Program-made: the position numbers and the translations under genes
Origin: Pestalotiopsis fici W106-1
Taxonomy: Eukaryota > Ascomycota > Sordariomycetes > Amphisphaeriales > Sporocadaceae
Reading direction: 5' to 3'
NCBI RefSeq assembly: GCF_000516985.1
Contig: NW_006917099.1
Coordinates: 310,001-374,000, forward strand
DNA: 64,000 bases
The notes under the pieces: generated by a model
Database searches by the model: none
Told to the model about the DNA's origin: nothing
The model's input: only the letters and a program-made list of their open reading frames with translations
Shown: positions 6,263 to 30,420 of the stretch, piece after piece
Layout: every line of letters starts with the position of its first letter
Position numbering within the stretch: position 1 is the stretch's first letter

Positions 6263-9036
6263 TCTTATGCTATTTAAGGCAGGTTTCGCGCTATTTTACT
6301 TTATTTTTCTAGCTATTTCGTGAGGTTTTTATTAATATATTATTTTTAATAATAGGTAATAAATATTAAAGTCGGCTTTTGGCAAAATAATAATAATAGG
6401 CAGAAAATATATATTATTATAAATATAAAATTATAATTTAATAAATTATATTATTTTTCTATATGCCTAAGCATACGCTAAATACGTATTATAATCGCAG
6501 ACCCTATTTTTCCACGTAAGCCCACTTAAAATTTAGCGAATTTAGCTAATCCAGTTTTTATTATATAGCATTATAACCTAGCACCACTTTTATACTAATA
6601 TACTGCTTCTATAGCGTTATAATCCGGCGCATTTTAGCCAGCTTATTTTAATCGTTACGATTTTTATAATAATAAATAATATAAGCTTATAAATCGACGA
6701 CTTTTACGAATCCCTTTATATAATCCGATAAATATAAGCTATATATAAGGCCCGGCTTATAATCTATTCTCCTTTGCACAAGCGGAATACAATTATATAC
6801 TTATATATTAATCGCTTACTTTATACCGACGGAACGTATAAAAAGCTTATATTTTAGGGAAAGGAATAGGTATAACCGTAGCCGCCGAGGCGGTAATAAA
6901 TTTTCGAAGCCTTTAAATATACGATAAAGCTATATTTAAATTAAATATTTTTTATATATCGTTAGCATTATATATTATATTAAATAAAAGGGGTTATATT
7001 TATCGTAAGCGGCTAAAATAAGGCGATTATAAACTCGGAAAAACCGCGCGCGGTTAAAATACTCGGTTTACGATTTATTAACGGTAATTAGCTCGTAAAC
7101 AATATAGGAGGGCAAAATGCAAAGTCGGTTATAGCAAAGGTAGGAGTTATTTATACGCTAAAACGGGCCGCATTCCAAAAAATTATCGAGCTTTACGCCG
7201 CTATACGGCTATTATTTATATTACGCGGCTGCTTTCGCAGCCGCGGTTATATAATCTAAATATTTAAATATTTAGCAAAAATAAATAATATTATATATAG
7301 GCGGGAAAATATAAAATTAACTGGTTTAATAAAGGTTAATTTTTATTATAAATGCTATTAGCTCGGGTTTTTTTAGCAAAATAATAAAAAAGGCATTTCC
7401 CGGGATAAAAAATAAAATTATAAAATCAAATTCGAAGATATATAATTAATTTATTAAAATATTGCTTTAATTTAAATATTTAGCGACCTTATTAGCTTTT
7501 AGGCTTATTTAATTTATTAAGCAGGTAAAGCATATATTATAGCTATTAATAAAAAACGAAAAATCCTATAAAGCTATTAAAATACGGATTTATAATTCGA
7601 AATAGCGTTTTTTAGCGTCCAAAAACTATTTAATCGCTTTTTGCTAATAAGCCGATTTTAATAATTTAATTTTATAATTAGGTATCGGTTTTTCGAAGCA
7701 TTTACGTTTAAATTAATACTATTTCGCTTTAGGATTATTTTAATTTATATTTGGTAGTAAACTTAGAAGAAATAATAATAAAGGGGATTAGGCTAAAAAC
7801 AACGCGCGATATTCGAATTTATCGTATATTAAGCCGGCGAATAAAATAGGCGCTATACCTAAAATTATAATATTAGTAATAATAGCTAATAATAAGGCAA
7901 TTATAAGAAAAATTATAATGCCTAAGCCTATTTATAATAATACCAGAGCTATATTTTTAGATAACGAAGCGGTATTTAGGATATTAGCGCTGGCGCTTTA
8001 TTGCCGATCTTTACTTTAATCATATTAGATGCGGTATCGTTTAAAATTTTATTTTTTATTAAAAGTGGTATTATATATAATCCCGTTAAAGCGACGCTAA
8101 TTATAGCGGTATTTTTATAGTATTATATTTATTTTATGCCGATTAATAAGTTAATGCTTAAAAGAGTTCTTAATATTTTAGGATAAGAGGATATAGCAGC
8201 TGGGTATCGTTTTAAAAAATGATATTATTTTATAAATAGCTAATATATTAAATAAATTTTTCCGTAATATATATAAGGATATATTTAATATTATAGGTTA
8301 ATATTATAAAGCCTTTAAGACCTTTATTTTGATATTTTGCATTTTATTTTAAGATTTTTAATAAGATTATAAAGTAATATAAGATTTGCCGTTTTAATTT
8401 AATTATATTTATAATTTATGTATTAAAGGGTACGATTAGCTTTAATAAGGATTGCTATTATAGTAGGATAAGACTAAGAAGAATTTCGTGATAAAGTGGA
8501 CGAGATATAAAAGCCGATTTTATGTAAGGGCGCCGGGGTTGCTGCGGCTCAAAGATAAAGGGCGGTAAGAAGAAAGCCATTAATTATTGTAATATGTGGG
8601 ATGACGATGCATATAATAAAATCCTGGCGCTATTTATATCTGTTATTTATTATAATAATTATAATATAAGCGATATAATAATCGCTAATTTTTTATTCGA
8701 GGCGATAATAATGGGATGCTTTATATTAATTTGCATATTTATAAGGATATTAAGCGCGATTATAATTGAATTTTAATAAATATTAAAGCCGCACGTAGTA
8801 GTATTTATATTTGTAAATGTTTTTAAAAGTTTTAATATTTATAAAAAGAGCCGGGATAAATAAATATATTTTATATTGAGAAACGAAGCTTTTAGTGTTG
8901 TGTAATAGTTAGGGGTAATATGAATAGGATAGAATGAATATACGAATCGAAGGTTTTTATCCCGTAATAATATAAAAAGGGGAATAAAGCGATGCTATAG
9001 TATTTTTTAATGTGTTTACTATTTTAAAGCTTGTTA

Positions 9037-9072
9037 TCGGTGTTTTGGTCGGTGTTTTGGTCGGTGTTTTAA
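9037..9072 (+). repeat. 12-bp tandem repeat x3
   Basis: Unit TCGGTGTTTTGG repeated at 9037-9048, 9049-9060 and 9061-9072 (last unit ends AA-ward). The TpG steps are unmutated although the surroundings are RIP-mutated. Confidence 0.8.
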
Positions 9073-9568
9073 TTAGTTTTTTTATTGTCTTCCTTTTTTT
9101 TAACCTTTTTTTTAACCTTTTTTTAATTTTTACCTTTTTTTTTTGCCTTTAAGAACGCGCTTATACTAATAATAATTAATTATATAATAAATATATTCGG
9201 TAGCTTTAAAGGAGTATAGGTTACTAATTTGTATAATTTTAATTTTTCCGATTTATTAAGAGCTAAAATTAGTTAAGCTATTAGTAACGCGAGCGGTAAT
9301 ATTGCCGTTTTTTTTATTATCGGTTAAATATCCCGTATTAACGCCGGAGCCGGAGCGCTAAATAGATAAGCCGTTTAATAATTTAACGATATTATAAATT
9401 ATATTTATTTTAAAAATATTAGGATAGATTTAAAAAAAAATATATATTTTATAATTAATATTTATAGTATACGAAAAGCTAAGCTTATTTACGTTTAATA
9501 TTAACGGCTTTTCCGTTCCAAGCGCCGTTAGCTAAAGCTTTAGCGGGAATAAAATTATTAGCTATATC

Positions 9569-9613
9569 GTTTAAGTTGTTTAAGTCGTTTAAGTCGTGTA
9601 AGCCGTGTGAGTC
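9569..9613 (+). repeat. 9-bp tandem repeat x5
   Basis: Five units of GTTTAAGTC and close variants (GTGTAAGCC, GTGTGAGTC). Codon-multiple period, so it may be the remnant of a low-complexity coding stretch; it could equally be a simple minisatellite. Confidence 0.75.
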
Positions 9614-12600
9614 GTATATTTATTTATAAAAATTAAAAGAGGATAAATAAAAAAAGTTTTTTAATTATATATAAAATAAATTCCGTTTAGCCCAAAGCAA
9701 AAAATAAAAATAGGTAAAAAAAAAAAGGAAAAATATAAAAAATATAGCTAGCGATAAAAGGTTTTTTGTAATTATTTGGTAATTTATTGCTATTACGTTA
9801 ATATAAGTAATAGGAAGGGCTGATGTTTTTATTAGCGTTTGGCGTTTTATAGCCTTTTAATTAATAATATATTATTTAGCGTGGCGGCTTAGTAATTAGT
9901 TTATTAGGCGTTTGAAAATATTTAAATAAATAGGCCGCGGTATGCTTAAAGTTTTTATAAAAATATAAATAATTATAAAAAAAATCGAAGTTTTTAATAA
10001 AAAATAAAACCGTAATATTTACGATTAATTATTAGCATTTATAGATAAAATAAGGAATTATTTATAATATAAATATTAAAAAATTATATTAATAATTATA
10101 TTTTTAATAATATTTCCTAACCGTAAAAAATAAACGGTTAGGGCGGTAAAGCGTATCGTTTACGAAGCTTTTTTGCGTCGTTTAAAGATATAATACGTAA
10201 TAATTAGCGGTTTATATAGGCGATTCGCTACGCGTTGCTTATACCTCCTATTTTTATATTTTTTGCTTTTTATCCTTTTATTATTTTTTTTCCCGTTTTT
10301 TTGCTTTTTTTTTTTATTATTAATTCGCCTTAGTTTTATTATTACGGATTATTTTATTAATCGCTAGCTATTTATTTATAACCGTAATATTATATATTTT
10401 TATATTTTTAACTTTTTAGTAATATTAGTTTTTTTAGACCTTTTAGATAAAAGCTTTTAACGTTAAATTATAACCGAGCTTATAAAAAGCTATAAAAATA
10501 TCGGTTAAGGCTGGCCGTATTAGTTTTTCGCGCTTTATTTATAATTGGAGGGTGATTTATTTATAAGATATTATAAAAAGCGGCGCGTTTAGCGTTTAAG
10601 GTTTTTATAAAGGATTTAAAGAATGGGATTAAATTATAAAAATTGATGGGCCTGGGATGGAATTGTCGAGCATAATGCAGGTTTTTATATACAAGCGCGT
10701 ATATCGAGCAGTAATATAAATAGTAAAATTAATCGAGTAGTTTTGCTTTTCTTATAATCGGAGTATGGCGTTAATTTTCGCAGCTTTTTTTTTTATATAT
10801 TTTAGATAAAAGCAAAAGCGGTAATAAATAGAATTAAATAAAAAATTTAAAAAATTTATAAAAATATATATTAATTATGGTATTTAGGGCAATTATAAAG
10901 ATAATAATCGTTATTAATTTATTATATTTAATTTTTATAAATAACGGGCTAGGCTGGGCGATAGTTTTATTTAGCTAAATTTAAATTACGCCCTATTATC
11001 GCCTTAAATTTAAATTTAATAATATATACCGTATATGCTAAAAATTCTTAAATATAAAGGTGGCCCGTGCCTTTAGTTACCGTATAGCTGCGGTTAATTA
11101 ATTTTATAATTCCTTGCTAATCAAAAATTATATAGGAAAGCTATTTTAGACCGGCCTTTTATAAATATATTGCTTTTATAATTATATATTTAAATATACG
11201 TTAGTTATTTATTTATTATTAATTACCGTGAGCTTTATAACGATAAACGATACCTTTAAGGTATTTATAAAACAAGCGATATATAATAGCCGCCGCTGGC
11301 CCCTTGTCCTAATCTAGTTTATAGTATTATATATTGGGGTAGCTATAATATTGCGAGGCGATATTATTAGAAATTATATATTAATTTATATATTATTATT
11401 TTAATAAAGTATTATTTATATTTATTATAAATAATTATATTTATTATATTATAGTTATATAAGGATTGCTTAAAAGTCTTATTTAGTTATTAAGTAGACG
11501 ATAATATAAAGTATTCGCAGCCTTTTTTAAGCCGCGTTTATTCGCCTGAGATATATAAATAGCCGTAAGCGATTATATATAGCGCTATTTTTAATTTGCG
11601 GATTAAAAAGGAAGATCTATGGCAGCTATTTAAACGGATATATGCGAAAAAAAATATATATTACGTTATAATCGTAATTTTAGGATTATAACCGATAAAA
11701 TAATTATTTACCCGAAAACGTAGCTATTATTTAAGCTTTAATAAAGGGATACGTTATTTTTAAGCTTAAAGATTTTTTATAATTATTTTATAAAAGTAAT
11801 TTACCGTAAAAAAAAATAAAGTTTTATTAAATTTATTTATTTAGCTAAAAGCTATGCAAATATCCGGATTTAGGGAGTAGGATATAATTTAAAGGCCGCT
11901 ATTAGCGAAATAGATTAAATATAAACGATTTTATTTTTTATTTAGTTGGAAAGTGATAGCGATAAAAAACGGATATATATTCTGGCGTGCCTTCGAATTT
12001 GGACGATTTTTTCGGATTTATAATTTTTTATTTATTAATTAATTAAATAATAATCCTTTATTTATATTTTTTTCGTTATTATGCCTGGCTTTTTAATTAT
12101 TAACGAGTTTAATTTTAACCGTAATAATAGCCGCGTTATAAAGTAGGGAATTCCCGGTTTGCGCCCGTAATATTATTCGAGCTTATAATTTGTAATTTAA
12201 TCCGCCGACGCCGCTTAATTTTTTAATAAATAACGATTCGCTATAAAATATATTTCCAAACGGCGGATAATCCTATTTACCGTATATATTTTTAATCGGA
12301 GCTTATTAATTGTAAATTTGATAAAAGCTAGCTATAGGGGAGTTTATATTAGCGATTTTATTGCGATTTATACCGAGCTTTACGTTAAGCTTTAAGCCGC
12401 CGAAGCCCGGCTTTTAAAATTTATAATTTTAGTAATTTAAATTAAGCTAAGTATTATTTAAAAGGGCGGCGAGCGTTTAGTAAATTAGGATTTTAGCGGC
12501 AAGAGCGCTAAAGATATGGAAAAGGAGTTTAAAGTTATCCGGGCGATATTTGCGGAAAGGAATAGCCGTAAATAATAATAGGAAAATATAAAGGTAGCTT

Positions 12601-13890
12601 TTTTTAAAAATATAGTAATATAAGATATTAATTAATATATTTAATTTATATATAATGGATAATTTAGATTAATTTGGAAGAGTATTATTATTAATAGCGT
12701 AGCGCGCTAAACCGTGCTTTTTATAATCCGGGAAACGCCCGTTAATATATATTGCATTTTTTAAAATAAACCGTGCTTCGAGTAGAAAGGGTTATTTGTA
12801 GCGGTATATTCGAGATATATTAAATTTAAACGGTTATTTTTTATTTTATTAATTTTATTAGATTATTTAACGCTGGCGAGCCGTGTTGTTTTAGCGTTTA
12901 TTAATAATACGGTATTTTTTGATTTGCCTTAGCGCTAATACGAATTGCTAGTGGCTGACGTATTTTTGAAGTTATTTTTGTTTTGATTATATTATAACGT
13001 TTTCCGCTGTACCTTGGAAACCGTTTTAATAGCTATATTACTGAGATATGGGGAACCCGGTTTTACGGCGAAGTCCTAAATTAGCAATTGATTTGGAGAT
13101 CCCCGCCGCTTAATGGCTATTAACTAGAATGGCGCAAGGTTTCCTTTTTTTTTTTAACCTGGCTTAGATTGCAAAAATATATATACGCGGGATTTCGAAT
13201 ACGGTTATGCCCGATAAATATAAACGCCTTATATATAGCAATTTTAGTAATAATTTGCCTAAAGGGTCGAAAAGCAATTAAATAAAACGTATAAATTACC
13301 GGATATAATAAATAAATGATTTTTTATATACGGCTTATCGTTATATTATATTAAATTAATTTAAGCAAATAATATATAGTTAATGCACGGAAATTTTCCG
13401 AAATATATCTAATTTTAAAGCTACGAATTAAATAATTACGGATATAATCCGGGGGAAATAAAGGCTGGGTTTTTTGTGCGTTAGGCTAGCGGGGTTTTTT
13501 TTTATATAAGGCCTGCTAAATTACCCGTAGGGTTATAAATGCGTAGCTTATTTATTAAACGTTATACGCTTATATTTATTATCGAGGTGCTTATTTTAGC
13601 TATTATATTAAATATAAGTAAAGCTATTTATAATTTTATATTTGTTTTTTATTTTTTTCCTTAAAAAACCTAGATTATTAGCAATACGTCCGGATTTAAA
13701 AATAAATTTAAATTAATAAAAAAGTAATTAGTATTCGGAAGGCTTAACGAAAAATATAAATTAACGGTGATTTTAATTCCGTAATAATAATAGCTATATA
13801 ATATCTTTCTAATACCTACCCGAAAATGGTATTTATAGCGTTAAACCATCTTATATTCGGACCTGTTATTTTATTCTTGCTTTTACTTTT

Positions 13891-14047
13891 ACCTTTTAAA
13901 ATCACCTTTAAAATTACCTTCAAAGTCACCTTTAAAGTCACCTTTAAAGTCACCTTTAAAGTCACCTTTAAAGTCACCTTTAAAGTCACCTTTAAAATCA
14001 CCTTTAAAGTTACCAAAATTATTTTCAAAGTCATCTTTAAAGTCACC
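13891..14047 (+). repeat. 12-bp minisatellite (TCACCTTTAAAG)n
   Basis: About 13 units of TCACCTTTAAAG with a few variants at the ends (ATCACC, TTACC). Almost every unit keeps an intact CpA. Because the period is a multiple of three, the array opens frames on both strands, giving FKVT-type and LKVT-type peptide repeats; these are by-products and not genes. Confidence 0.9.
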
Positions 14048-17000
14048 ATATTTATCTCCGCCAGTTATAATAACGAACCAGCAGAACAGGAAGCTATTAA
14101 TATCGGCTTAACGCAAAAGCCGCTTTAGCTCGGCCGCTTATAGGATTTAAAGCCTTAGCTCGAAATAAATAATTTAAACGTTACCGTTATAAATATTTAC
14201 GAAACGGTTAATCCGAGGCTTAAAGGGTATAGCGGTATTATAAATTTTTAGAAATATTAAAATATTTTTTAAAAAGCCGTAATAGCTAATTTTAGCAAAA
14301 ATTGCTTATTAGCGAAATAATATAATATATTTATATATATATAAGGTGCTTTTGCTTTTTAAATAAATAAGCTAAATAATATTTAAAACGGAACAGATAT
14401 AGCTTTTAAGGCTATAAACCTTATTTTAACGTAGAATTTTACGCGTGTTATTTTTTTTTATAATTTGGGAGTTTTCCTTTATTACCGGTTTTTAAAAATT
14501 CGTAAAATTAGCGATTTAGAGGAAGCTATAGAAATCGCTTTTAAAGCCTTTAAAAAATCCCGCTAAAACTATAATCTTCGAATTCCTGGTTTTATAAAGC
14601 TATTTAACGAATTAAAAGCTATTATAAATAAAAATTTAATAACGAAAAAGGTAAAAATATCCTAAATTTAAATAATAAATAAATAGTCGAATATTTAAAT
14701 TAATATTAAAGCACGTTATATATTAGAGTTATTTATAATAAATATGCTTTTTAAATAATATATAATCCCTATAAATAACGGGCCGGGCTATAGTAACCGT
14801 TACGTTTCTTTAAATCTTAATTAGGCGCGTGGGTAGCTGGCAAATCGGGTGACTAATACTAATATATTATATTTAAATCCGATTATATTATAAACCGGTA
14901 ACTTTAAATTAAATATAGCATTAATAAAATTATAAATAAAATATTATACCCGTAATTCGCTATTATAATTCGAATTACCGTCCGGCCGTTTTTTTTTATA
15001 TTTTAGAAATTAAAAAGTGCCGCTTATATAATTAAATTATTAAATTAAATATAAAATATAAAACGTATTATCGCCGTATTAAAACCTAGGGCTTACCGAG
15101 TCCGAGGGAGAATTATTGACGGTTTAAAATATATTTTATAAATAATAATTTTATAATAAAATAAATTATAAATAAAATTTATTATTTTAATAGCTATATA
15201 AGCGCCGAAAAGCAATAATATTTTAATAAACGATTCGAAAAAGGTTTTAAATTTAAAAACGTTAATATTATTATAAGCTTAATAAAAAAAAAACCGATCC
15301 TAAAAATATAAGCCTTTTTTATTTTAATAATTTAAATTTCCGTAAAAAATATAAACCGGCTTATTAGCTAAAAACCGAAACGGCTTTATTGGCTAAAAAT
15401 TAATAACGTGGTTTTTCGGAATTATATAAAATTCCTTTAGGCAATAAGGTCGGGTCGGATAGGTTTAAATTCTTTAAATTTTTTATGAAGGCTTTATTAC
15501 GATTTTATAACGTTTTTTTTCGGGCTAAAATAAAAATAATTAATATCCGGGAATATATCCGGTATTTATTATTAATAATAATATATTATATAATATCGAT
15601 TAATTTTTAACTTTTTTGCTAAATAAATATATTAAAATAAATGCATTTAAAAATTATATATAATAATACCTTTTGCTTTAAGCTATTTATTATTTTTACT
15701 TATTATTTATATATCGAAAACCTATTTTTTATTATTGCCGGCCTTTATTAATCTATATATATTTTCCCCGAGTTATATTGCCATCCCATACCCTTTTACT
15801 TCGATCGAAATTTTCGCAAATTCTAAAACGATAATATCGAAATTATTATTTAATAAATCGAATAATTTAACGGCAAAAAGGTCGGGGTTTCTTAATAGCT
15901 ATAGTTTTATTTATATCTACGTAGATTCTGGCGCTGTATAAATATTATATTATAGCTATTATAAACGTGGATTTTAGGAAGAATTAGGCCGTATAAAACG
16001 GGGCATATCGCTACCAGGTATTGGCGTAAAGTGGCTTTATTTATAAAAAATGTATTATAGGCGTAGTAAACGTAATATTTACGGAGGAATATGCCGTTAT
16101 ATATTTGAATATGCGTAAATAAAAATAGTAGGCTTATAAAAATAATTAAATAGTAGGGGTATATATAGGATAGAGTTTGCGATATATTCGCTAATAAATA
16201 ATAAGGGATTTAGGTGCAGGTTTTATTTTCCGGAGCTAATATTAACTAAATTTTAATAAATATTATATATAAAAGACTAAAAGGTTAAAAAATAATTATA
16301 AAAGGATTAGCTAAAGGGCGGTTAAAATTGGCTTTTTAAGTAAACGGTTAATATTAAACGGATAAATATTTTAGTTTAGTATCGTTTATATTTACTGCTT
16401 TGCGCATTAATAATCAGAAATATATAAATAAGGCAGAATTTTTAGAAAAGTAAAAAAAAAAAAGCTTAATTATACTAAAAATAAAAAAACTAGCGGCTTA
16501 AATAAATTTAGCGGTAGTTATTTTTAATTCGCTAATAGCCGTATTAGTTTTAATATTGCTTTAAATAATCGTAAAATATAAATATGCTACCGTAAGTGTT
16601 ATAAATAAAAGGTCAAAGAAGATGATATTATAACGCGCTATAAATTATAAAATGCTGGCGTAAATAAGCCCGGTTTAGGAAAATTGCACGATAAGCGTTA
16701 CAAATTTAACCTTTATAATCGTAAAATCTATTATTATATATTATTAAGTATACGCTTAGCCTGGCTTAGCGGGCGGAAGTTAAGAAATAATTAGTATATA
16801 TATATAATTAGGCAGCTGGAAATATTGCTTTTATTATATAATTAACGGGTAATAGGTTTTAAATAATAATGCTTTTTTTTTTTATAAATTTAAATATTTA
16901 TGCCTAGAAAACGTAGGTAAAAAAGAAATATTATAAAGGAATTAAAAGGCGCTATTAAGGGTGGCCTATTTAAATTATAATTAAAAAAGTGATTATATTA

Positions 17001-17929
17001 GCTTAGGTTATAATATATTATATGGAATCGCTAAACGAAAAAAGATAAATTGCGATAAAGCGGTTTTATTTTAATAAATTATCGCAATAATAAATATTTT
17101 AAATTATAATTTATATATATATACTTAAGCTTATATATGTATTTAATTATTCGAATATAACTATAATATAGCTTTTAAAATCGTATATATAAATATGCCT
17201 TTTTTATGCTTTATTTATTTTTATTTTTATATTTAATTATTTATTATTCTATATAATAATTAATTATTATAACCTAGCTAAAAACGAATAGCTATAGCTA
17301 TATTTTAGTTATTATATAATAAAGCGCTAATAATTTAAGCTTATTTTAATTATTGCTAATAATATTTTTTAATTTTTAAAAATAAAATACTTTTATATAA
17401 TATTTATAAAATATATATTTAAATTATAGCCTTATATTATATATATATATTTTTAGGAAAAATACGCATAAATATAATTTCTACCAAATAGCTATAGCTA
17501 CGGCGGGACTATAAACCTAATTTAAAAAACCTGACCGACCCTTATAATACCGTGTATTATTATGCTTTATTATTATTAGCGTTTTTATTTACCTGAATTT
17601 ATTATTACCGAAAGCGATTTTAAAATAAATTAAAGCAGATATTAAGGGATTCGATAAATTTCGAAGTTTTATAGGTTATATTTTTTATATTAAAAATGCC
17701 ACGGAGCACTTTTTAAATTTTTGTTTTTTGTTAATTTATTTAGAGGATAAGATTTTTCCGATCCGTAATCGCTAAAATAAAAAATATAGCTTTTCGAAAG
17801 CTTATTAAATATAAAAAATATAAATATATTTATAAATAAAATAAAATACGCAAAATAAAAAATATAATTTTTTTACGAAAATAGGTATAATAAATATATT
17901 TTTTAAAAAATTTCCGACGGTTAATAAGG

Positions 17930-18900
17930 GCCAAATAAAGGCCACGCTCGACTTTCTTGCTAAAAAATTAAATCTTCCAAACGCTAAAAAATCGGCGAAA
18001 ATCTGGGTTTTATGCCCCGAGTATATTTTCGATAAGGACTAAGGTATATAAAAGCCTTTATAAACGTAGCTATATTTTATAAATTATAAATACGATTAGC
18101 AAAATAAAACGGAATTAAAAAATTACCTAAAGATGGAAATACGCGCTAGCGTAGCAATAAAACGCCACACAAGACCTTTTTTAAGCGCGAGCCCGATGCT
18201 AACTTCAGCTTTAGAAAACGAATTTCTCGGGAGCTTCGAACCATTATATAAAAGCGTTTAAACAAAAAGACCGCATAATCATCCGGCCCAAATATAACGA
18301 TTAATTATAAACGCTTATAATATTATAGCTATTTTACCGTATATATTTATAAGCCGATAATTATAAGAGCCTTTAATAAAGGCCGAGGTCGATAATAAAG
18401 TAATAAAAAACACCGTAATAATATTTAAATTAGTAACGCTTTAAGTTATAAAAATAAATTTGGAGCTTCCGCCAAATAAACGTTTTCGGCGGGATAAATT
18501 AAACGCAAACCTAGCCGTTTTAAAAACGGCTAATAATATCGGTTTATATAATGCGCCTGGGAATTCGATAAGGACGGTTATTTTTTAGGCGTAGCTTCGG
18601 GTACGACAGCCTGATTCTAACGGCACCTAAGCTTCCCGTCGGATATAATATAATTGCTCCAAATAACCTTATTATACCGGAATTAGCGAAACTAAATTTT
18701 AAATTTCCCATAAAAAAAAGCGGAAAATGGTAAAGGAAGAATATAAAAAAGGAAAAAAGCTTTTAGTTATATTAGCAAAAAATTTCGAAATAAATATAAT
18801 AAATCTATATACCCGATTTTAGCTTCGGAAAATTAATTTTATAAAAGCTTTGCATTATTATATATTGTATAAAAGTGCTCGCAAAACCAAGCGCGTAATT
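17930..18900 (+). pseudogene. Decayed ORF of unknown function
   Basis: In one plus-strand frame the sequence reads as a protein with stops only of RIP type (TAA/TAG). There is a stop-free run from about 17930 to 18040, including KKLNLPNAKKSAKIW and LCPEYIFDKD. A second run begins at the ATG 18133 (MEIRASVAIKRH) and is open for some 42 codons. Coding-like stretches such as LPPNKRFRRDKLNAN (around 18460-18500) and KKRKMVKEEYKKGKK (around 18715-18760) follow. Amino-acid usage is far more balanced than in the flanking AT-rich noise. I recognise no domain. It converges on the zinc-finger/Ulp1 relic and may belong to the same element. Both ends are approximate. Confidence 0.5.
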
Positions 18901-21345
18901 ACGTTAATTACTATTGTGCTATTGCCTATAGCCAGATTTATCTAAAGTTGGGATCCTTATTCGATCTCGCTATTACCATCCTTGCCCTTGTTATCCGCGA
19001 TACTCCGGTGTAGGCAGATCTTTTCGTAAAGGATAAGGCCGTTTTTTATTAAAGCGCGCTATTTATAATATCGGCATTTAAAGTGTATAGCCGTATAATG
19101 TTTTTTAATTCTTTCCGGTTTATACGTTTTCGAATAAACAAAATAAATTAATTTGCCATCCACCTCCTTTTTGCTTTAAAATAGAGGCAATTTGCTATAA
19201 TTCGAAACCGGTAAAATAGGCTTTTAAGCCGGAGGGGCTGGCTTTTATGCCGGAAAAGCAGACTTTTTAACGTAAAAAAATGGATAAATCCCGTCCGCAG
19301 GAGCTAATGGTACGTTACCAAAGCTAAGGACCGTTTGCTTAGCTGGGGACTTCTTGAGGGCAGCTAATACATCCTTAATAACGGTTGCTGGCTTCTCCGA
19401 GTCCTTAGCTGGCTTTTAAAAATTAAGCATTAGATTTTAAAGCGGTGGAAAAAAAGGTGCCGGAGGTTTCTAAGTATTGGATTCGTGATTACTTAGCGCC
19501 GGCATTATACGGATAAAGGAGTTTTAACCAAGCTAATTCCAGACGCGTTTTTGCCAAAAATCCCAAATATTGTTTTAATAATAAATACCGCCCCGAACGA
19601 GGACTATAAGGTTACTTAGGATATATAGACTACAGCTAACGCCGTTATATTAACAAAAAACCGTTTTTAGGTTTAGCGTTAGGATTAGGACGTTTTAACC
19701 AAGCTAGCGCAGATATTAATACATATTTTTAAGGGTTCGCTTATATTGCATAAAAATCGGAGCTTGGCGCTATGAATCCGCGATAATAATAATATTAGTT
19801 ACGCGATTATAAATGGCTAGAAACTAATGGTCCGCGCCTTTAAGACGAAGAGAACTGGTACTAGCCATAAAGGCCACTTTTTGTGCGTTTATATGATTAT
19901 TTCTCCTAAATCGCAAAGCTGGATGGAAAATAGTATTAAGATTGGCGTAAGTATTAAGCAAAATGCCCGCGTCCTTTTCGTAGATTATATGCTGTGGCGA
20001 GATGTTGCGGAAGATTTCGAATATTTGCCCTTTTAGGTCCTTTTGTTGTAATTATTCCCGCCGAGCTATATGCACCTCCGAGTTCCAGCGGTTTGAAATA
20101 AGCTGGAACTAATGATCTTGCTATAGCTTAGGAGTCGGGCCCAGCTTTTGCCAATTGCCTTCGTATGCTAAACTACTAAATATGAGTTTTGTGTTTTGTC
20201 TCGATAGCTAAAGGGGACGGTAATTAAAATCTATTAGGATGTTATACGTCGTAATTCGGGACGGGATTTCCGTTAAACCATCCTAGTAAAGGGAAAGGGA
20301 GGTAGGAGAAGCAGCCGCGGGAGTGCTAATGGTATTTTGCGAGGAGGTCTGGGAAGGCAAAGGGGAAGCAGAATGGTAGGCAGAATTAAAAGCAGTTTGG
20401 AAAATACTAATATCGCTAGGAGTATGAGTGCTAAAAATAGCATTTAAAATTATACCGAGATAAGCAGCAGAAGCGGTATTTAAAGAGGAAACGGAAGCTA
20501 AACTAGCGATATTAGCGATACCAGCGATACCAGCGATATTAGCGATACTAAAAGCACTAAAAGCACTAAAAGCACTAAAAGTATTAAAAGCAAAAATTAA
20601 AGCGCCGTCACCTAAAGCGTTAAATTTAATCGAATATCCCCTTTTAGTTAAAGTTTTAATAAGCGATTTTTAAGCTGCGGGCTTTAAATGCGGTAGAGAG
20701 AAGGCGGTAAATATAAAATAAAATAAATTCGCGACTTTATTATTATTAGCGCTTTTTTGCTTTTTTTTTATAAGTTTATTTTTAGGTAGCGTTACCGGCC
20801 GTTTTAGGTAATTAAGCTTATGCCTTTAATATATTTTATTTTTGCTTTATTTTTTAAAGTTTCGTCCGTAATAAAGGCATTTAATATAGCTGGTTTTGCG
20901 GTATTTTATAAAATCGCGATTTCGAATAGCAATATAATCGTAAGCTTTATATTTAAATTTATCCGGCTATACGATTAATTCCGGCTTTTTTATGCACCCC
21001 TTTTGGTATTTCGCGCGCGCTATAGCGTTATAAAATTTCGTTTTATAATTTAGATATTATATATAGGTTTTGCGGTAATTTATAAGGTGTAGCTTTTAAG
21101 TAAAGGATTAGCTGCAGGCTTTATAATTATGGCGATATAGCTATACGACTAATTCCGGCTTTTTTATATATTTTTTTTAATATTTCGCGCGCGCTATAAT
21201 ATTAGGGAATTCCGCTTTATAACCCGGATAAATAATATAGTTTTTGCAATATAAATCGAGATTTGATTTTATGGTAAAATAATAGCCGCATTTATCGTAT
21301 TCGTGAGGACGCTCCGGATTATTTAGGTTTAAGATTAGGCATGTT
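18860..21345 (-). pseudogene. RIP-decayed zinc-finger / Ulp1-like protease / zinc-finger gene
   Basis: One minus-strand frame runs without frameshift from at least 21299 to 19016 (761 codons). Order: zinc fingers at about 21299-20900; Lys-rich, then Ser/Ala-rich low-complexity linker (20890-20290); a Ulp1/SENP-like C48 peptidase (about 20050-19560); Pro/Lys linker; two fingers (19145-19014). First-finger spacing is C-x2-C-x3-F-x5-L-x2-H-x3-H, with ligand codons at 21299, 21290, 21251 and 21239; others are C2HC (for example 21056, 21047, 21008, 20996). Many ligand codons read TAT/TAC, which is what RIP makes of TGT/TGC or CAT/CAC. Protease triad: His 19829 (then a stop at the usual Trp, then FLAIYN), Asp 19778 in IIIADS, Cys 19634 in YNGVSC, with a TAA six residues before it where the family has Gln. 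Known family: SUMO/ubiquitin-like deconjugating proteases, also carried by some DNA transposons. Now non-functional. N-terminal start and end are approximate. Confidence 0.75.
20892..21345 (-). repeat. 174-bp tandem modules, two zinc fingers each
   Basis: Copies begin (plus-strand reading) at 20892, 21066 and 21240 with GGTTTTGCGG, GGTTTTGCGG and its GTTTTTGCAA variant, exactly 174 bp (58 codons) apart. Each complete unit encodes one C2HC finger and one C2H2 finger on the minus strand. The third copy is recognisable only in its first half. Confidence 0.8.
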
Positions 21346-23280
21346 ATTTTTTAGTATTATATAATATTATTTTTGTAAAAAAACGCTAATATATAATACT
21401 TATAAATATATTTAAAAGTATTTTTTTAAAATTTTTTATCGCTTTTTGCTTTATTTACGGTAAATAATCGATTAGGCGGTATTATAACCGTAAGCGAGTT
21501 TTGCCTAAACGTATTTTTTATAACGCTTATATTAAATATTTATTTATTTTTAAAAAAAAGGATTTTTTTTAATCGAGGGCACGCTTTTAAATATGTTAAT
21601 AGGCTTTTCGCGCCCTAACCTTTAAATCTAGCGGTATTATATCTCGTCGACGTTTTAATATAAAGATTTACCGGGAAGCACGAAACGGATCGCGGTTATA
21701 AGGCGCCCGATATTTCTTTAAACGGTTAATGGGTAATTTTAGACGGCTTAATTAGTAAGCTAAAAGTTTAAATTAAAGTTTAATTATTATAAGTAAAAAT
21801 AAGCGACCGGGTTAAAGCTTTTATTGCCGGGTTTTTTTTTTTAGCCGAAGCTTATAATTATATTATAAATTTTTTTATTAATATTAATTATTAATAAAAA
21901 GTTTTATTATTAAACGAATGGGATGCCGAATGAGTTTAAAATTAGTTATTAAATATAGCTATTATTTGCGCCGGTTAGAAATGCGATTTTATTTTTGGTT
22001 TGCTAGATTATACCGTATTAAAGATAAGCATATACGAAAAATAAAGATTATTAGGTTTTTTTAGAAAAATAGCCCTGATTAGCCGAGGCTTTTCCGTATA
22101 TTTTTATTAATTTATTAAGCTTATAGCGGAAAAAAGCTGTGTAAAAAGCTTAATTTTAGCGTTATTTTTCGGTTTTAGGTTTGGAAAGGTGATAAAACGG
22201 AAAAAAGACGAATTTTCCGGAGTAGTCGGGATTTTAAATGCAGTATAAGTTATGGAATTTGTTAAGCGTAAGCTTATAATTTTTGGTTATTTTTTAATAT
22301 TAGTTATATAATCGCAAGCCTTCCGCGGCTGGATTATCGCTTATTGATTAGTGAGCTTTTTGGAAATTTCGGCTTCGAAACAGCTGTTGATTAGAAAATA
22401 AGTCTAATAAATCTTTAATATACGGCGATTTATTTGCCGTGCGAAACGTTTAAAAAACGGCTTCGGCTTTTGCCGGCGAAAGATTTAATTAACGTTAATA
22501 TCGAATATTATGGGAAGCCGTATTATTAATAATCGTGCTAATAGTTTTAATATTTATTAAAGCATTAAAATAAAGTTTTAGTTTATTTTGCTATTAGATA
22601 ATATCCGCAGAATTAGTCGTAGCCCGCAAAATGCGTCCGGCAAAAGGCATAGCTATAATCGGATAATAACCGTGGAGCTAATTTAAGCCCTAAAAAACGA
22701 TTTAAAGGTTTTCCCGGTTATTAAAGCCTATAAACGGGGAATAATATAGGATTTTTTTTTTTATTATTTAAACGAACCTACCTAAAGGCATTTTATACTT
22801 TAATAAAAAGAAATAAAAGCTTACGAATTTTTTTTAAAATATATTATAAATTAATATATTTATAGCGGAAGCTAAAGCCGTTTTTTACGCTTTCGTCGTT
22901 TTTTATTAAGGTAAAAAAGCCGCGGACGTATATATATATTTTATCGATAAAATTAATAAGCTTTTGGCTATTAAACGCGAAATTATAGTAATTTTAATTT
23001 TTTATAATAATTTATTATATAAAATTTTATATTTATTTTATAATATTATTTTTTATATTTAAAAATATATAATATTTATATATATTTTTTTTTTAGATTT
23101 TTTATCGGTTTATTAATAATAAGTAAGGCAGCGGTCGTTTTTAAAGGTTATTTCTTTAGAATTAGTTAGGGCTAAAATAAACCTTTTTTATAAATTCGAT
23201 TATTTCGGGAGCTTTAAAAGCGCCGGCAAGCTCGTTTTTAAGCTTATTTTTAAATTAATTATTATCGTCGATATAATTTA
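21346..23280. other. RIP-mutated DNA, no legible gene
   Basis: Upstream (minus-strand sense) of the zinc-finger/Ulp1 relic. Strongly mutated; I could not extend the zinc-finger frame convincingly beyond about 21345. A slightly less mutated patch at about 22180-22400 contains TpG but no readable protein. Confidence 0.6.
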
Positions 23281-25450
23281 AATTTAGCTAATCGGCCTCG
23301 ACGTGGCTATCGGAATGGACGCTCGCATCGGCCTAACCGGGATTAGGCTCGCCGGCGTGGATTTTATTTTATTAAGAGGATATAACTATTAAAATAAAAT
23401 ATTAGCAGATAAATATAAAGATTTGGTAAAAATATAATATAAAAGTAAATATAAATATTAAATAAAATTAATTTTATTTATACCGTGTTTAGGAAATTGG
23501 AAAGGTATAAAAAACGCCGGAGCGGTTTAAGATTAATAAGAATTTAGATTTATTAAAATAGGTAATAAAATTATTAATAAAAAATAGCTTAGGAGACTCG
23601 AATTTAATAATCCTGTTTTAATTAGTTGAGTCCGAGACCGTGGAATATTAGACTTACCAAAAACGTGGATAAAAGGACGTGGATAATAGGACTTATATCT
23701 AGTGAGACCTAATTAGAAAAACCTTGGATGGCTTAATTCTAGTTAGATTAGATTTAAGAAATAAAGGGATTGCCGATTTACTAAATAAATAGTTTAAGTT
23801 AAATATGAAAGTGCAAATCGTAAAAATCCTTAACTACCTTAATAATTTAACCAACTAGTGAGATTAAGGTTAAAATCGTTAGGTAAAATAAATTTATAAG
23901 TATTAATTAAGTATATATAAAAAATACTAGCTTTAAGAGATTTGCGCTTATTAATTGTAATAGCTGGATATTAAAACTTACGATAATGAAGTCTTTTAAT
24001 ATGCTAAACAAATATTAATGAAAATATATATGAGCAGGTGCTGGCTTAATAATTTTAATTAAATAACTAAAGATAGGTAAAACCGGCAAAATAAGTTGCA
24101 ATTAGTAGTAAATTAAAAGTCAATAAGGTTCTAATATACTTACAAATCCGATAAAAATAAATAAAACGAAAGCCTTGGGCAAAACGGATCTAAAAAACCA
24201 CTAAATTAAAAACGAAAGACGTAAATACCCAAATGCTATAAAGGTTAAAGGCCTAATAAATTATTTAAATACCTATTATTTATAATAAAATATAACCTGA
24301 GATATATACGTTATATAGCTAAGATTGCCTTTATTTATTAGAGACTATTATATTTGATATATTTTTTATTAATACGGTAATATTTTTTTTTCGCTTGGTT
24401 TTTAATATTTATATTAAATATATTATTATAAAGCCGTAAATAAACGCTATAAAATAAAGATTATATAAAAATCGTTTATATATGATAAAACCGATAAGCG
24501 GGTGAGATTTAATTGGTTAACCTATATTCGATATTTATCGTTTTGAAATTATAGTTTAATCCGGCATATTACATAGTGTTTTGCAACCTGGCATTATTAA
24601 ATTAGTATTTTTTTTAAATTAGTTTATAAATTTTCCATATATTATGGAAATATATAAATGCTGCCTGGTTTAATTAATCCCAATCTCTAGCATTACTTTT
24701 GCAGCAAGTTATGGTTTATAAGTTAGTTGTGGTTAGATATCACTTTACAAAGCTTTATATATACCAATCTATCTTTAATAATACCTTATACACATACCAT
24801 TACGCTATAAATTTATACTTACGACCTGCTTTTTAATATAAAATAAACGACGGTATAATGGGAAATTTTATATATAACGGGTATATATTAAGATCCACTC
24901 CCACTAAATTTTTAACTTTAAATCTGCTATTAGGCGGTGGTTAGCCGGCAGCGTCTAAGACCTTTAAATATAGTTCGGACGGATTAAATGCTTTTAAACG
25001 GGTTATGTTTTTAACCGGACTAATCTAGATTTTATCGACTTAGCGATAAGTGTGCATCTATAAGGAAAATTATACGTACATAATAAAAAAAAAAGTTTAT
25101 ATATAACAGACTAAAGTGGTCTATTATCTAAATAGATATATTGCCCCACTATAACGGCACGGCTAGCGGGTTTAAAATTTAAACTTTAAACAGCCTACTA
25201 AACTCTATTTCTAATAACCGTTAGCCAGCTTAGCTTTAAGCTTTAATAAACAATAATTCCATTATAAACAGCTTTAATCCATTATATATCTAATTTGCGC
25301 ACCTAGCCGATTAACTCCCATTTTCAATCTACAAAATCAAAAACCCATCCATTACGTCCGATGCCGTTGGCGTGTCCACGCAGATTCTTTATTTGCCACC
25401 TTGCATCCGGATTCCACTTATATCCCGATAGCGAAAAAAAAGCGCATTAT
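23280..25450. other. Weakly mutated islands inside the RIP block
   Basis: Compared with its surroundings this stretch keeps many CpA and TpG steps, notably 23285-23360 (GC-rich, with the perfect hairpin GCCTAACCGGGATTAGGC near 23330), 23600-24200, 24540-24760 and 24900-25440. No long open frame, RNA gene or known repeat end is recognisable. The islands may be late insertions, single-copy DNA captured by the block, or older sequence that diverged too far to trigger RIP again. Confidence 0.45.
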
Positions 25451-27480
25451 CGGTGAGGCTGTAAAATTATGCTATTAATTACGGTTAAATAATAAGTAGT
25501 AATTTTTATAAATCTATAAATTAAAAGGTTTTTTAAGCTATTTATATTTTTATTATATTACCGATGCCGAATTACCGGTTAAATTATTTTTTAAATTAGC
25601 TAAAAAACGATATAATAGAGTATTATTATATATTATTATTTACTAATTAATTTTTATTTTATTATAATTATTTAATATAGCTATTTATAAATATTACTTG
25701 TACGGTCGCTAATATTTATTTTATATTATTATATTTTGCTATTTAATTTTGCTAGCCGCCGGATCGCAAATATATACGCTAAAGCGCGGCCTAATTTAAA
25801 TTTATAAAAATCGAGGATTATAGCTATTTTTTGATTTTTTGCGATCGCTAAAGATATTTTTTTAGTATTTAAAGATTCGAAGCTATTACCTAAATTACCG
25901 GGGCTCGTTTTGCGCTACCGATTACGATTTCGATTTTATATTTACTCCCGACCGCCGCTTTTCCTTTTTTTTTTTGCCTTTTACGGGCAAGCGCGGTTTT
26001 GCCGGCTTTTTTTAATATATTACTATTTTAACCGGGCTAGGTTTATATTTCCGTTTAATTTAAGTAAATTATTTTAAACCCGCGCGATATTATTACCGTT
26101 TTAAAGATACCGTTTTTTACGAATTTAAAAAGGAGGCGGTAAATATTATTATAGATTTTAGGGAATACGATCGATTTACCTATATCGTTAAAATCGTTAA
26201 AATATAGCCGGTCGTAAAGGTTATTTAAGCGTTAAAACCTAACGGTTTAAACCTAAGCCTTTATTTTAATAAAATAAGCGTATTACTACCTTTTATAATT
26301 AGTATATAACCGGAGTTAGCGGTATATTTAATCGATATTTTATTTATAAACGCTTTAACGGTATTAGTCCCGTCGCCGAATATATTATTATAAATTTATT
26401 TTATTAGAATTATTCGGGTATATAGCGATTTTTTATTAATTTTAATTTTATAAATTACGGTTTAATATTTATTAGAATTTTAATTAGAATTTTTAAACTA
26501 CGGTCCGATAATATTGCTCGGTTTGCCTAATATATATATATAGAAATAAAGGCTCAAATAATATCGTTATAAACTATTTGGAATATTAGCAGCCCGACCG
26601 ATCCGATATATTAAGCCGCTTATTATATTACGCCAAAAAAGATTTATTCGGATAGCGATAAAGCGCAGCGTTTTATAATTTATAATTATTAACCTATAAT
26701 TACGGCGCCACCCGATCGACGCCGAATTCCGTTATAATAAGTTAAATAAACGGTTACGTTAAATATAATAAATTAAAAATACGATAATAAGTATAATAAA
26801 TTGAAAATACGGTAATTAGGTATATAAAATTATAAATATTAGAAATTCGGATATTATTTGCAAATTATTAATTATAATTAGCTATTAACGCCATAAATTT
26901 AATTTATTCGATAAGCCGGCTTATTTATTATTAAATTATTAAACGTTATTATAATATAGGCGTAGCACTAAATATTTTTAGCTTAATAAATATATTTATA
27001 TTAGCAATTATTTTATAATTTATTTTAAATATCCCGGAGGAAAAATATAATATTTATATAAATTCCAAAAGCTTCGATAATATTTTCGCCTAATTATTAT
27101 TTAATACCGCGTAACGCGTTTTTGGCCTTTTTTATTTTTTTAATTTCGTTTACGATATCGTTTTTATTTTTATTTTTATTAAAGATTTTTTCGGCGAGAA
27201 TTAGCTGTTATATCGCGTGGTATCGTTTAGCTACGTAAACCCCGAGGTTATTTACGTTATAAAAAATTAATATTTTTTTTTTTTATATTATCGAAAAATT
27301 AAAATGCTAAAGCTAAGCGCGACCGGGCTATATTTTTGCTAAAAGGCGCTTTGGTTTTAATTTGCGGCGCGTTTTACGTTAGCGACGCCTAAATATCGCG
27401 GGCGCATTTAATTATACTTTTAAAATTAAATAAATATTTATTATCGTAATTATTATATAAGCTTTAAAAGATATTAGACG
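25451..27480. other. RIP-mutated DNA, no legible gene
   Basis: Dense TAA/TAG in all frames and a near-complete loss of CpA/TpG. Nothing can be annotated with confidence. Some segments (for example 26100-26300) have locally balanced codons but no motif I can name. Confidence 0.6.
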
Positions 27481-28520
27481 TAAATTTGTTTTTCCGGCTT
27501 TTACCTTTGTTTTTAGTCGAGCGGGAGCCTTGGGGTTTTATTTTGCCTTTATTATCGCTTTTGCGATCGCTTTTGCGATCGATTTTGCTTTTATTATCGC
27601 TTTTGCTTTTGCTTTAGCCTTTGCCTTTGCTCGGGCTTTTACCCTTGCCTTTTTTTATGGTATTTTTATATTATTTAAAAAGGACGCCTGGGAGGATATA
27701 ATTGATTTTATTGCGCGGATTAAGGGACGCTTATATATTATTTATTTCGTTTAGCGCGATTTTGTCGTTTAGCTGGATTTTTTTATTATTAAAGTGCTTA
27801 CGGAATATGGCTAATTTTTTTTTTATCGTCGAGGGCATTTTAAAGCTCCTCGGCCCTATTTGCGAGACCGCCTAAAACGTCGGCAGAATTATTAAAATAT
27901 CCAAAATTATTAATTTTAAAGTTATTAGCTTTAGAGTTATTAGCTTTAGAGTTATTAGCTTTAAAATTATTAGCTTTAAAATTATTAGCTTTAAAATTAT
28001 TAATATTAAAATTAGAATTTTTAAAATTGCTAAGCGCGTTAGAATTGCCGGCTTTGTTTTTTTCGACGGTACCCGGTTATTTATTATTTTAGCTACCGTT
28101 TTTAAAATTTTAGCTATATTTAGGAAAGCTTTTAAATTCCGACGTAATAGCGCTTTTAAAGCGGCGTAAGATTTTAAATAAAACGGGCGGTTTAAATTTT
28201 TATTTTTTAAGCTTGGCCGCTATAGCGTCGAATTTATCGCCGGAGCCGAGCTTTTTAAAATAATAAATAAATTGGTTTTTAGTTTATTTTATTAGGGCCG
28301 TTAGCTTTTCCTAGGCTAGGTTCCGGCGCGTTTTTTATAGTTTTATATTATATATATAGCGGTTTAGCCGTAATTCGAATTTATTTTTGCTATTAACGGC
28401 AAGGCTTTTTTTATCGTTATTTTCGGCAAAAGCGGCCTTTTTTATTTAAAAAATATTTTTAGGGTATTATTTTTTTAGGGAGATTTAGGCCGTTTTAAAG
28501 GATTTTATAATTATTTTAAT
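27480..28520 (-). pseudogene. Decayed low-complexity ORF, possibly gag-like
   Basis: On the minus strand from about 28320 downwards one frame reads coherently, with only TAA/TAG breaks: stretches such as FKKLGSGDKFDAIAAKLKK, PPVLFKILRRFKSAITSEF and PGTVEKNKAGNSNALSNF. These are followed by a pentapeptide repeat (S/F-K-A-N-N, 27906-28010) and then FNNSADVLGGLANRAEEL. Below about 27650 the sequence becomes a Lys/Gln-rich run made of CTTTTG-type hexamers. The arrangement (helical domain, Asn-rich linker, basic tail) recalls a retrotransposon Gag, but I see no CCHC knuckle, and that reading is inference. The plus-strand Ala/Phe-rich frame at 27530-27754 is the shadow of the basic tail. Confidence 0.4.
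27906..28010 (-). repeat. 15-bp tandem repeat x7
   Basis: Seven consecutive 15-bp units, best copy GTTATTAGCTTTAGA, later units AT-shifted (ATTATTAGCTTTAAA). On the minus strand each encodes S/F-K-A-N-N within the decayed frame described above. Confidence 0.85.
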
Positions 28521-29699
28521 AGTCGTTTTTTTAGGTAAATATCGTATTTAAAATAGCGGGTGTTTTAGAGAATAATAAAATTAAGTGGTGGTTTAATTGT
28601 AATAAGCGTAAAGCGGGTGGGCCTATTTGGACGTTATTTCGTTTTTATTTAGTATTTATAGCGATTCGTCGCGATATAAATTATATATTATTAGGATATT
28701 AGATATGGCTATATTATTTTGGAATAATACGTAAATATATAATTTAAAAAGGTAATTTAAGGTGTTATAGCTTATATTTATTTATAAAATAAGATGGTAA
28801 TATTTATTTAAATATAATAACGATTCGTTAATAACGATTTAAGGGTTTTGCGGCTTTGGGGATTTAAGAGACGTTAATTACCGCCGCCGGCTTTTAAAGC
28901 TAAATATTTAGATTAGCTTACTATATAATATTTTATCGCTATAAAAAATATAGGAATTTTCCTTAGGTTCGCTATTTAGATGCGTATTATTTTATTTTTA
29001 ATAATTATTAAACCCGAAAAGCTATTTATTTCGATTTTTATTTTAGCTTTTAAACCTAATAAAGCTTTAGTTTTAGCTTATTTATTTTAAATAATAATTA
29101 TAAATAATAGCTAGCGAGCGATTTAAGCCGAGCGACGCTAATATTTTAAACGTTATTAAGATTTCGGAAAATGGTTTATTTTTTTAAAAAGTATTTATTA
29201 TTAAATAATATTTTAATAGCTTTTTTAGCTTAATTACGGTTTTTAAGGAAATTTTTATTTTAATCGATATAATTATATAAAATAATAAAATTTTTTAAAA
29301 ATGGGTTTCGGAATTTATTAAAAAGGTTGCCGTAAATTAATAATAATTAAAGGACGCGGAAACGGATTTAAAAAATTAGCGGGATATATTTTTGGTAATT
29401 ATAAAATCGGCAAAAAAAGGTAAAAATATCCGTAATAAGCGTAAAAAGGATTTTAACGCCTTTTTCGCTATAAGCGCCGGCGGCCCGCGTTTTAATTATT
29501 TATTTAAAATTTTATTTTAAAATTTTTTATATAGCGTACGTATATAAATTATATTTTACGGCTTTAGCTATTTTTTTATATATTATTTTGCTAATATAAA
29601 AATATATTACCGGCTAACCAAATATAACCGCGGCGTATAAAAAACGCGATAAATTTAATTTATTAATTTATTTTAGCTAAATTTCGTCGCTTATTAAAA
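28521..29699. other. RIP-mutated DNA, no legible gene
   Basis: AT-rich with frequent stops in all frames. I see no repeat, hairpin or open frame worth annotating. Confidence 0.6.
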
Positions 29700-30420
29700 G
29701 CTTACCAAAAAAAAATTCGCCGCCGCTAAAATTACGATTAGGCCCGCCGGGTTTTTTATGCTTATAAAAGCGGTAGCTAACGAATCCGTTATCGTCGATT
29801 TAAATTTCGATAAGGCCGTAGCAAATTTCGAACCCGGCTTCCGCGGTGCTTAATAACCGGTTAAATACGCTAAAGCGGAGCTTAAAAACGACGACAACAA
29901 TTTAGGCGCTAAAAAAAATAACCGTTTATTATTTAAGCCTAAAAAATTTATTATTAAATATAACGCATTTTTATTTACGCATAGCTATGCTTATAATACG
30001 GCCGTAAATAAAGACCTTAAATCGGCGATTAATAATTTAAAGCTTACCGACGGATTTAAGGCGATCGAAAACGTTTTTTAAAAAATACTCGTTTATATCA
30101 ACGTATTATATGCCCGATATTGCTAAATAATTTTAATAAACGGCTTTAGCTCGGTAAAGCTTAAAAATAAAAATAACGTCGCTATATTATAAAAATAGTT
30201 TACCGCCGACGTCTAGGCCTTTTTTATTTATATCCGGGTAAAGCCGTAAGCTAAAAGCGAATATAACGCTTTTAAAATATCGTTTAGCGGCTTTTTTTAA
30301 ATTAAAATAACCGATTTTATAAAAGCGAATAACCGGGAAGGTATTAAAAAAAAAATTCGAAAATAAAGGGATTAATAAATAAACGCGATAAATTACGCTT
30401 AATTTAGGATAATTAGGATT
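29700..30420 (+). pseudogene. Decayed ORF of unknown function
   Basis: Plus-strand frame (codon starts in register with 29770) with balanced amino acids: KKKFAAAKITIRPAGFFM, then IKAVANESVIVDLNFDKA, a TAA TAA pair at 29851, then 74 uninterrupted codons (29857-30078) including LKSAINNLKLTDGFKAIE. After the TAA at 30079 it continues with only RIP-type stops to about 30420. No start ATG is needed for this reading, so the frame is a fragment. I recognise no domain. The opposite strand is also fairly open here (Leu/Ser-rich), so orientation is likely but not certain. Confidence 0.4.

Follow-up and report, generated by a model that had tools for sequence, protein, structure and literature searches.

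A decayed gene for a zinc-finger array and a C48-like protease domain in a giant repeated element of Pestalotiopsis fici

The decayed gene and the element that carries it

The window analyzed here is a stretch of 64,000 nucleotides from Pestalotiopsis fici W106-1 (contig NW_006917099.1, positions 310,001 to 374,000; contig 9 of the 20 contigs, 51.7 Mb in all, of the genome that was searched). It contains a giant repeated element heavily altered by repeat-induced point mutation (RIP). Within this element lies a decayed gene, which codes in order for a zinc-finger array, a low-complexity linker, a predicted relative of the C48 (Ulp1/SENP-type) proteases, a second linker and a last zinc finger. 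The coordinates are collected in Table 1.

The reading frame of the gene is still legible. It holds 32 stops in 828 codons (18,860-21,345); the two remaining minus frames hold 53 and 77, and the three plus frames 47, 61 and 76. Of the 32 stops, 19 are TAA, 13 are TAG and none is TGA. The first-pass annotation of this DNA had described a single minus-strand frame free of frameshifts, with disruptions of the RIP kind, inside a RIP block, and this description was borne out: besides the types of the stops, lost zinc ligands have become Tyr, and the block extends from about 6.2 to 42.3 kb, with a TA/AT ratio above 1.05 per 1-kb bin from 6 to 42 kb and a scarcity of CA and TG. It had also counted at least seven finger units. 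Seven are indeed legible in the window copy: the two complete 174-bp repeats contain four of them, the array ends with two more, and one lies at the C-terminus. Many of their ligand places are occupied by Tyr. The last spacer, however, is H-x3-C and not H-x3-H in the least decayed units, which gives C-x2-C-x12-H-x3-C. In the stop-masked translation of the window copy, the linker between the protease stretch and the last finger is rich in Lys and Pro.

Table 1. Features of the decayed gene and its element (positions in the window)
Feature	Position	Strand	Remark
Giant repeated element, about 36.3 kb, heavy RIP	6191..42508	.	Right end approximate; from copy comparisons and RIP indices
Decayed gene: zinc-finger array, low-complexity linker, predicted C48 protease, linker, zinc finger	18850..21338	-	Single frame, no frameshift
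Two 174-bp units, two C2HC fingers coded per unit	20952..21299 (21126-21299, 20952-21125)	-	Nine copies have 1 to 4
Terminal part of the array: another repeat-type finger, then a last finger of a different kind	20790..20951	-	Read from sequence
Low-complexity linker with 9-bp tandem repeats	20290..20789	-	First half 0-3% transversions across copies
Exchanged block, three types	18800..20500	-	A-B edges sharp; A-C 3' edge gradual
Predicted C48 (Ulp1/SENP-type) protease domain	19506..20093	-	Profile matches come from sister copies
Putative catalytic His column	19827..19829	-	
Putative catalytic Asp column	19776..19778	-	
Putative oxyanion Gln column	19650..19652	-	L033 and L038 have Gln; the window copy has a stop codon
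Putative catalytic Cys column	19632..19634	-	
C-terminal zinc finger, C-x2-C-x12-H-x3-C, two ligands Tyr	19014..19076	-	Read from sequence, types A and C
14-bp tandem repeat (AGGTCTYTCCAGTC-like), 2 units, candidate cis target	23697..23724	-	2.4 kb upstream of the gene

The searches of the genome gave nine gene copies, that of the window and eight others on contigs 3, 2 (two copies), 7, 4, 10, 19 and 8. Such counts are lower bounds. Every copy carries stops. Longer comparisons showed the entire block to be a single repeat. Of ten other loci, eight have its left end at window position 6,190-6,195 and two at 6,206; its right end maps to 42,498-42,509 in eight loci. At eight loci, of which the window is one, both ends are present on one contig, with spacings of 24-57 kb; the locus on contig 11 has both ends and no match to the gene. 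A similar motif, TGCYATTTTNGGTAA, read from the end sequences, is found close to both ends in inverted orientation. Among the nine ends read on each side there is little difference, and no clear target-site duplication was seen on comparing the flanks of the element ends. The repeated element is likely to be a giant transposon, and would have moved as such, because its dispersed copies share common ends.

It should be mentioned that the right ends (window 42486-42508; L058-L065 at the other loci) show two variants after GATAR, TCGCAGTGT in four of nine and TTGAGCTG in five of nine, and that these are divided among otherwise similar copies.

The protease domain and its exchanged types

RIP produces transitions only. 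The copies (window, L031-L038) were therefore compared by transversions or in a purine/pyrimidine code. When the window was compared with the eight other copies, the transversions at codon positions 1/2/3 numbered 316/258/467 for the protease part and 321/296/449 for the C-terminal part. There was no third-position peak in the finger part (134/95/100) or in the linker (86/58/49).

Over the backbone of the element the copies are similar: the transversion difference among them is 0.5-1.5% at 16.95-18.75 kb and 0.6-2% at 24-25 kb, and their relations are star-like with the exception of one pair. This pair is L034 (contig 4) and L036 (contig 2). In neither the upstream flank nor the finger array does a transversion separate them, and downstream there are 2 in 1,719 sites, so that the two are regarded as recent sisters.

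The protease region is quite different. A divergent block begins within the second half of the low-complexity linker, at about 20.5 or 20.3 kb, and runs down to 18.8 kb, and it exists in three types: type A in the window and L031, type B in L032 and L034-L038, and type C in L033. In the domain, window and L031 differ by 0.4% transversions, type B differs from both A copies by 18-19%, and L033 differs from all others by 25-26%; in the C-terminal part the A-B difference is 24-26% and the A-C difference 17-18%. In steps of 100 bp, A-B comparisons (L038, L035) gave 13-30% within the block, and the A-C comparison (L033) gave 15-34% from 20.4 to 19.3 kb and then 5-12% below. The few hundred bases adjoining the block on each side differ by 0-3%.

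Two conclusions follow from this comparison. First, the between-type changes peak at third codon positions: the domain has 30/18/43 for A-B (window-L038, 171 codons) and 37/29/54 for A-C (window-L033, 165 codons), and the C-terminal part has a weak peak (A-B, 40/33/43). This means that the domain was kept under long purifying selection as a protein. Second, the block was exchanged between copies, because over most of the backbone the two copies of type A are not closely related. At 16.95-18.75 kb L031 is the farthest of all from the window (25 of 1,717 sites; other copies 14-21), and at 22.05-23.1 kb it is the nearest (35 of 1,049 sites; other copies 46-64). The expectation that the rarer block types would be less mutated by RIP did not hold: L031, of type A, is as mutated as its flanks.

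The identity of the domain was examined with stops read as X. L038 matches the Pfam profile PF02902 with an E-value of 6.7e-5 and 23.3 bits, above the curated cut-off of 20.7, and L035 matches it weakly (E 0.077, 13.3 bits), under this cut-off. In a blind scan of the three gene-strand frames of L038 (9.9 kb, E<=0.5), the only matches were to Peptidase_C48 (17.6 bits) and zf-C2H2 (13.3 bits). Both lay under their cut-offs, shared a single frame and followed each other in the expected order. A profile of seven copies gave two matches at E<=1 among 177,635 Protein Data Bank (PDB) sequences. The better one was yeast Ulp1 (E 0.28), in which the His and Cys regions were in register, and the second was an unrelated toxin subunit (E 0.79).

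The decayed proteins of the three types are 29-43% identical. In spite of this, the His, the Trp after it, the Asp, the Gln and the Cys are common to types A, B and C, and in the codon-by-codon comparison of the window, L031, L033 and L038 all deviations in these catalytic columns are C-to-T or G-to-A changes. The domain is therefore assigned as a C48 relative on the basis of profile matches in the sister copies together with the catalytic columns, from which we infer its state before RIP. The first-pass annotation had placed the catalytic residues at 19,829 (His), 19,778 (Asp) and 19,634 (Cys), with a stop at 19,652 in place of the Gln; these positions are exact, and the residues, which were expected to be conserved in relatives, held across three diverged types of decayed copies. 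The pairing of zinc fingers with a C48-type domain, also proposed there, is supported by the L038 match and the blind scan.

No intact relative was found, either in the genome itself or in a protein collection. In the latter, neither the protease piece of the window (E<=0.001) nor the seven-copy profile (E<=0.01) found a relative, both being short queries for which the length filter drops full-length relatives; nor did a longer five-copy profile (E<=1, with the 7,995 best candidates scored). The genome-wide PF02902 search (E<=0.001) gave three intact C48 genes with open frames, all outside the element. When one of these three was compared with the element profile, the Cys box alone aligned (probability 20%).

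Variability of the finger array

The array consists of gapless 174-bp units coding for two fingers each, 23 units over the nine copies, with the pattern C-x2-C-x12-H-x3-C-x2-C-x2-C-x12-H-x3-C. In 22 of them (the frameshifted first unit of L037 was excluded) all 176 zinc-ligand cells are occupied by Cys or His (44) or by Tyr (132), and Tyr is the single-step RIP product of both Cys and His. The best zf-C2H2 match in the stop-masked scans reached 21.9 bits and did not reach the curated cut-off of 25.2.

Helix positions -1, 2, 3 and 6 of both fingers, by C2H2 numbering, are taken by us to be the contact codons. Measured in the purine/pyrimidine code, diversity at these eight predicted contact codons amounts to 0.230 for codon positions 1+2 and 0.061 for position 3; the other codons have 0.084 and 0.098, respectively. 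This means an excess of amino-acid change at the predicted contacts. In a permutation with 20,000 draws of random eight-codon sets, the approximate p-values were 0.0071 for positions 1+2, with 0.0086 in another run, and 0.0014 for the difference; they were 0.012 and 0.0021 without the first unit of L037, and 0.0078 and 0.0011 with 19 non-redundant units. The signal is carried by five of the eight contact columns, namely a-1, a+2, a+6, b+2 and b+3.

The array and the protease block evolve apart. Between the window and L031, transversions amount to 0-1% in the protease block and to 4-13% in the array; the latter figure may partly be misregister from the unequal number of units (2 and 3).

The 14-bp tandem repeat upstream of the gene also varies in number, from 1 to 7 units per unbroken run across the window and L031-L038 when counted by pattern; for L033, where this count hit another place, two units were counted by eye. 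This repeat is likely to be noncoding, because 14 is not divisible by three.

Proposed function, alternatives and neighboring features

VANC proteins of Arabidopsis VANDAL elements bind to motifs within the noncoding DNA of their own elements and lift silencing, and KIU proteins are the VANC subset carrying a Ulp1 domain, the role of which is open (PMC13317346, PMC5735166, PMC10398659). Because fingers combined with a SUMO-type protease parallel VANC/KIU, we propose that the present protein might be their fungal counterpart, a sequence-targeted anti-silencing factor of the element; this seems quite possible, if somewhat short of probable. Through the finger array the protein would attach to DNA in copies of its own element, in rivals or at host loci, and at the bound DNA the protease would clear silencing proteins of SUMO or a related tag. 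Removal of SUMO would open the chromatin and so permit expression and movement of the element. Change at the finger contacts might retarget the protein quickly, in the manner of an arms race, following changing targets. The outcome here would be a defeat: all nine copies found bear stops of the RIP kind.

The resemblance to VANC/KIU lies in an element-borne gene with a Ulp1 domain as in KIU, in the coexistence of conserved domains with a variable region (tandem peptide motifs in VANC), and in rapid divergence within the family (PMC13317346, PMC5735166). In contrast to VANDAL, which is a non-TIR MULE, the present element has a length of 36 kb and its gene varies in a zinc-finger array, and no MULE transposase was recognized. 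Ginger1 likewise has a C48 domain on an element-encoded zinc-finger protein, as a C-terminal Ulp1 domain (PMC2836005). The present gene differs from it in its many tandem fingers, in the giant element and in that no DDE integrase domain was recognized.

In KRAB zinc-finger proteins, the DNA-contact residues of the finger array change fastest. The same is described for PRDM9 (PMC10703446), with which the present array shares the excess of amino-acid change at predicted contact residues. It is distinguished from both by its C2HC two-finger units, by a protease as the predicted effector, by the lack of a recognized PR/SET or KRAB domain, and by the repeated element that carries it. As a giant fungal element with cargo genes, the repeated element resembles the Starships of Pezizomycotina; unlike in Starships, no DUF3435 captain was found in it. 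Accessory DNA of fungi is also described as carrying additional Ulp1-type genes, on the minichromosomes of Colletotrichum (PMC10779208).

Ulp1 domains on transposons are already described in plants and in Ginger1 (PMC2836005). In the titles and abstract openings examined, with few subscription papers among them, we found neither a fungal element combining zinc fingers with Ulp1, nor an element-borne hypervariable finger array, nor an array and a protease block evolving separately, which does not prove their absence. If the proposal is true, a DNA-targeted SUMO protease with fast-changing fingers would mirror the host KRAB zinc fingers on the side of the parasite and would parallel plant VANC/KIU independently. 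To our knowledge, counter-defense of fungal transposons against silencing is a largely open field. Purine/pyrimidine coding lets RIP-ruined repeats be read for selection, and in this way dead elements reveal past selection.

A wider picture is also conceivable, though doubtful: a giant fungal transposon with its own PRDM9-like targeting, in which a fast-changing array would guide a SUMO protease to selected DNA. Array and protease block would evolve and recombine separately, and lineages of the element could change both target and tool in attacking host silencing until RIP ended them. The first-pass annotation had called the gene a cargo or accessory gene of a mobile element. The repeated element with shared ends agrees with this label, which overlooks what the RIP-blind comparison brought out as the main feature, the exchange of protease types and the hypervariability at the finger contacts.

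Several observations weigh against the anti-silencing proposal. The profile evidence for C48 is modest. The stop-tolerant search, from which the first-pass annotation had expected a C48 match, succeeded with L038 and, below the cut-off, with L035 and failed with the window copy, L033 and L036 (three of the five copies scanned), and the genome-wide search missed the window and every element copy. Chance or low-complexity matches had similar E-values, Presenilin at 2.5e-4 (antisense strand of L038) and PRMT5 at 0.13 (L033), both under their curated cut-offs. The single-sequence fold of the window domain had a predicted local distance difference test (pLDDT) score of only 36.8 and was unusable. 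With regard to the array, the permutation p-values are approximate because the units are related, the contact columns a+3, b-1 and b+6 are nearly invariant, and the non-contact codons 3, 6, 7, 9 and 56-58 are as variable as the contact ones. C2HC fingers are able to bind protein rather than DNA. The 14-bp repeat, the best candidate for a target of the fingers, does not track them: the sequence of its unit is about constant. X-masked Pfam scans, in which RIP lowers the sensitivity, recognized no transposase, and the mobility of the element therefore rests on dispersed copies with common ends. DNA binding, protease activity, its substrate and the anti-silencing effect are all predicted steps.

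These scans extended over the greater part of the element (window 6.0-13.8, 24.0-28.8 and 37.5-42.3 kb; L038 and L039 in six frames; the gene strand of L035 and L033 in three frames). With the same reduced sensitivity, they gave no match to MULE transposase, DUF1985 or DUF287, and DUF3435 captains numbered zero in the element copies in genome-wide and end-region scans. No integrase-like DDE domain was recognized N-terminal to the Ulp1 domain on the gene strand of L038, where that part is the finger array.

Among the alternatives, a helper of transposition is unlikely but survives best. Its fingers would bind the element ends, and its protease would free the transposase or the repair factors of the host from SUMO, so that the gene would belong to the machinery of movement rather than to anti-silencing. 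Ginger1 carries its Ulp1 domain on the transposase itself (PMC2836005), and the element has shared ends with an inverted subterminal motif. The ends, however, are nearly constant and the finger contacts vary; constant ends should mean constant contacts. In addition, the scans recognized no transposase.

It is also rather unlikely that the gene is captured cargo, a host-like zinc-finger protease gene whose finger variation reflects repeat slippage and relaxed constraint. Tandem 174-bp units favor slippage, and several non-contact codons are variable too. Relaxed constraint, on the other hand, predicts even diversity, and the contact codons have 0.230 at positions 1+2 against 0.061 at position 3. 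The one host C48 gene compared, moreover, shared no more than the aligned Cys box.

A recognition or killer-type conflict gene, in which block types and arrays would tell self from non-self between copies or strains in the manner of incompatibility or spore killing in fungi, appears improbable. Three ancient block types on a nearly star-like backbone do resemble alleles separated by diversifying selection and exchanged through recombination; no partner gene or phenotype is known, however, and the enzymatic domain was under ordinary purifying selection. Finally, an artefact of translating AT-rich, RIP-mutated, low-complexity DNA is very improbable: the window copy alone matches no Pfam family at E<=1 and low-complexity parts yield chance matches, but the codon-position pattern of transversions in the protease and C-terminal parts, the 176 of 176 ligand cells and the blind scan of L038 all speak against it.

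Some minor observations remain. Other scan matches stayed below cut-off: DUF789 (E 0.026), TFIIA (0.35), Zip (0.034), Leu_Phe_trans (0.22) and Complex1_LYR (0.49), and, in the finger piece of L038, DUF7129 (E 0.033) and Zn_ribbon_TFIIS (E 0.11). A MAPEG match in window 37502-42301 on the minus strand (E 0.0043) was also below its cut-off, with 17.6 bits against 23.4. DUF3435 matches occur at three places elsewhere in the genome (contigs 3, 1 and 2), the best being a 597-aa open frame on contig 3 at 6.03 Mb. Upstream of the gene, a second decayed frame on the minus strand (22050-23100) shows mostly 3-6% transversions. It is likely to be another fast-evolving gene of the element, because its transversions exceed those of its flanks (about 1%) and indels are few.

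To the right of the element lie two intact frames. The first, of 868 aa on the plus strand (44259-46865), matches the QDE-1 silencing polymerase among solved structures with an E-value of 9.5e-209, and its matches to the plant counterparts are at 2.9e-13 and weaker; together with RIP, this agrees with a filamentous ascomycete as the host. The second, of 873 aa on the minus strand (49278-51899), matches the vacuolar sorting protein Vps41, again among solved structures, with an E-value of 1.3e-37.

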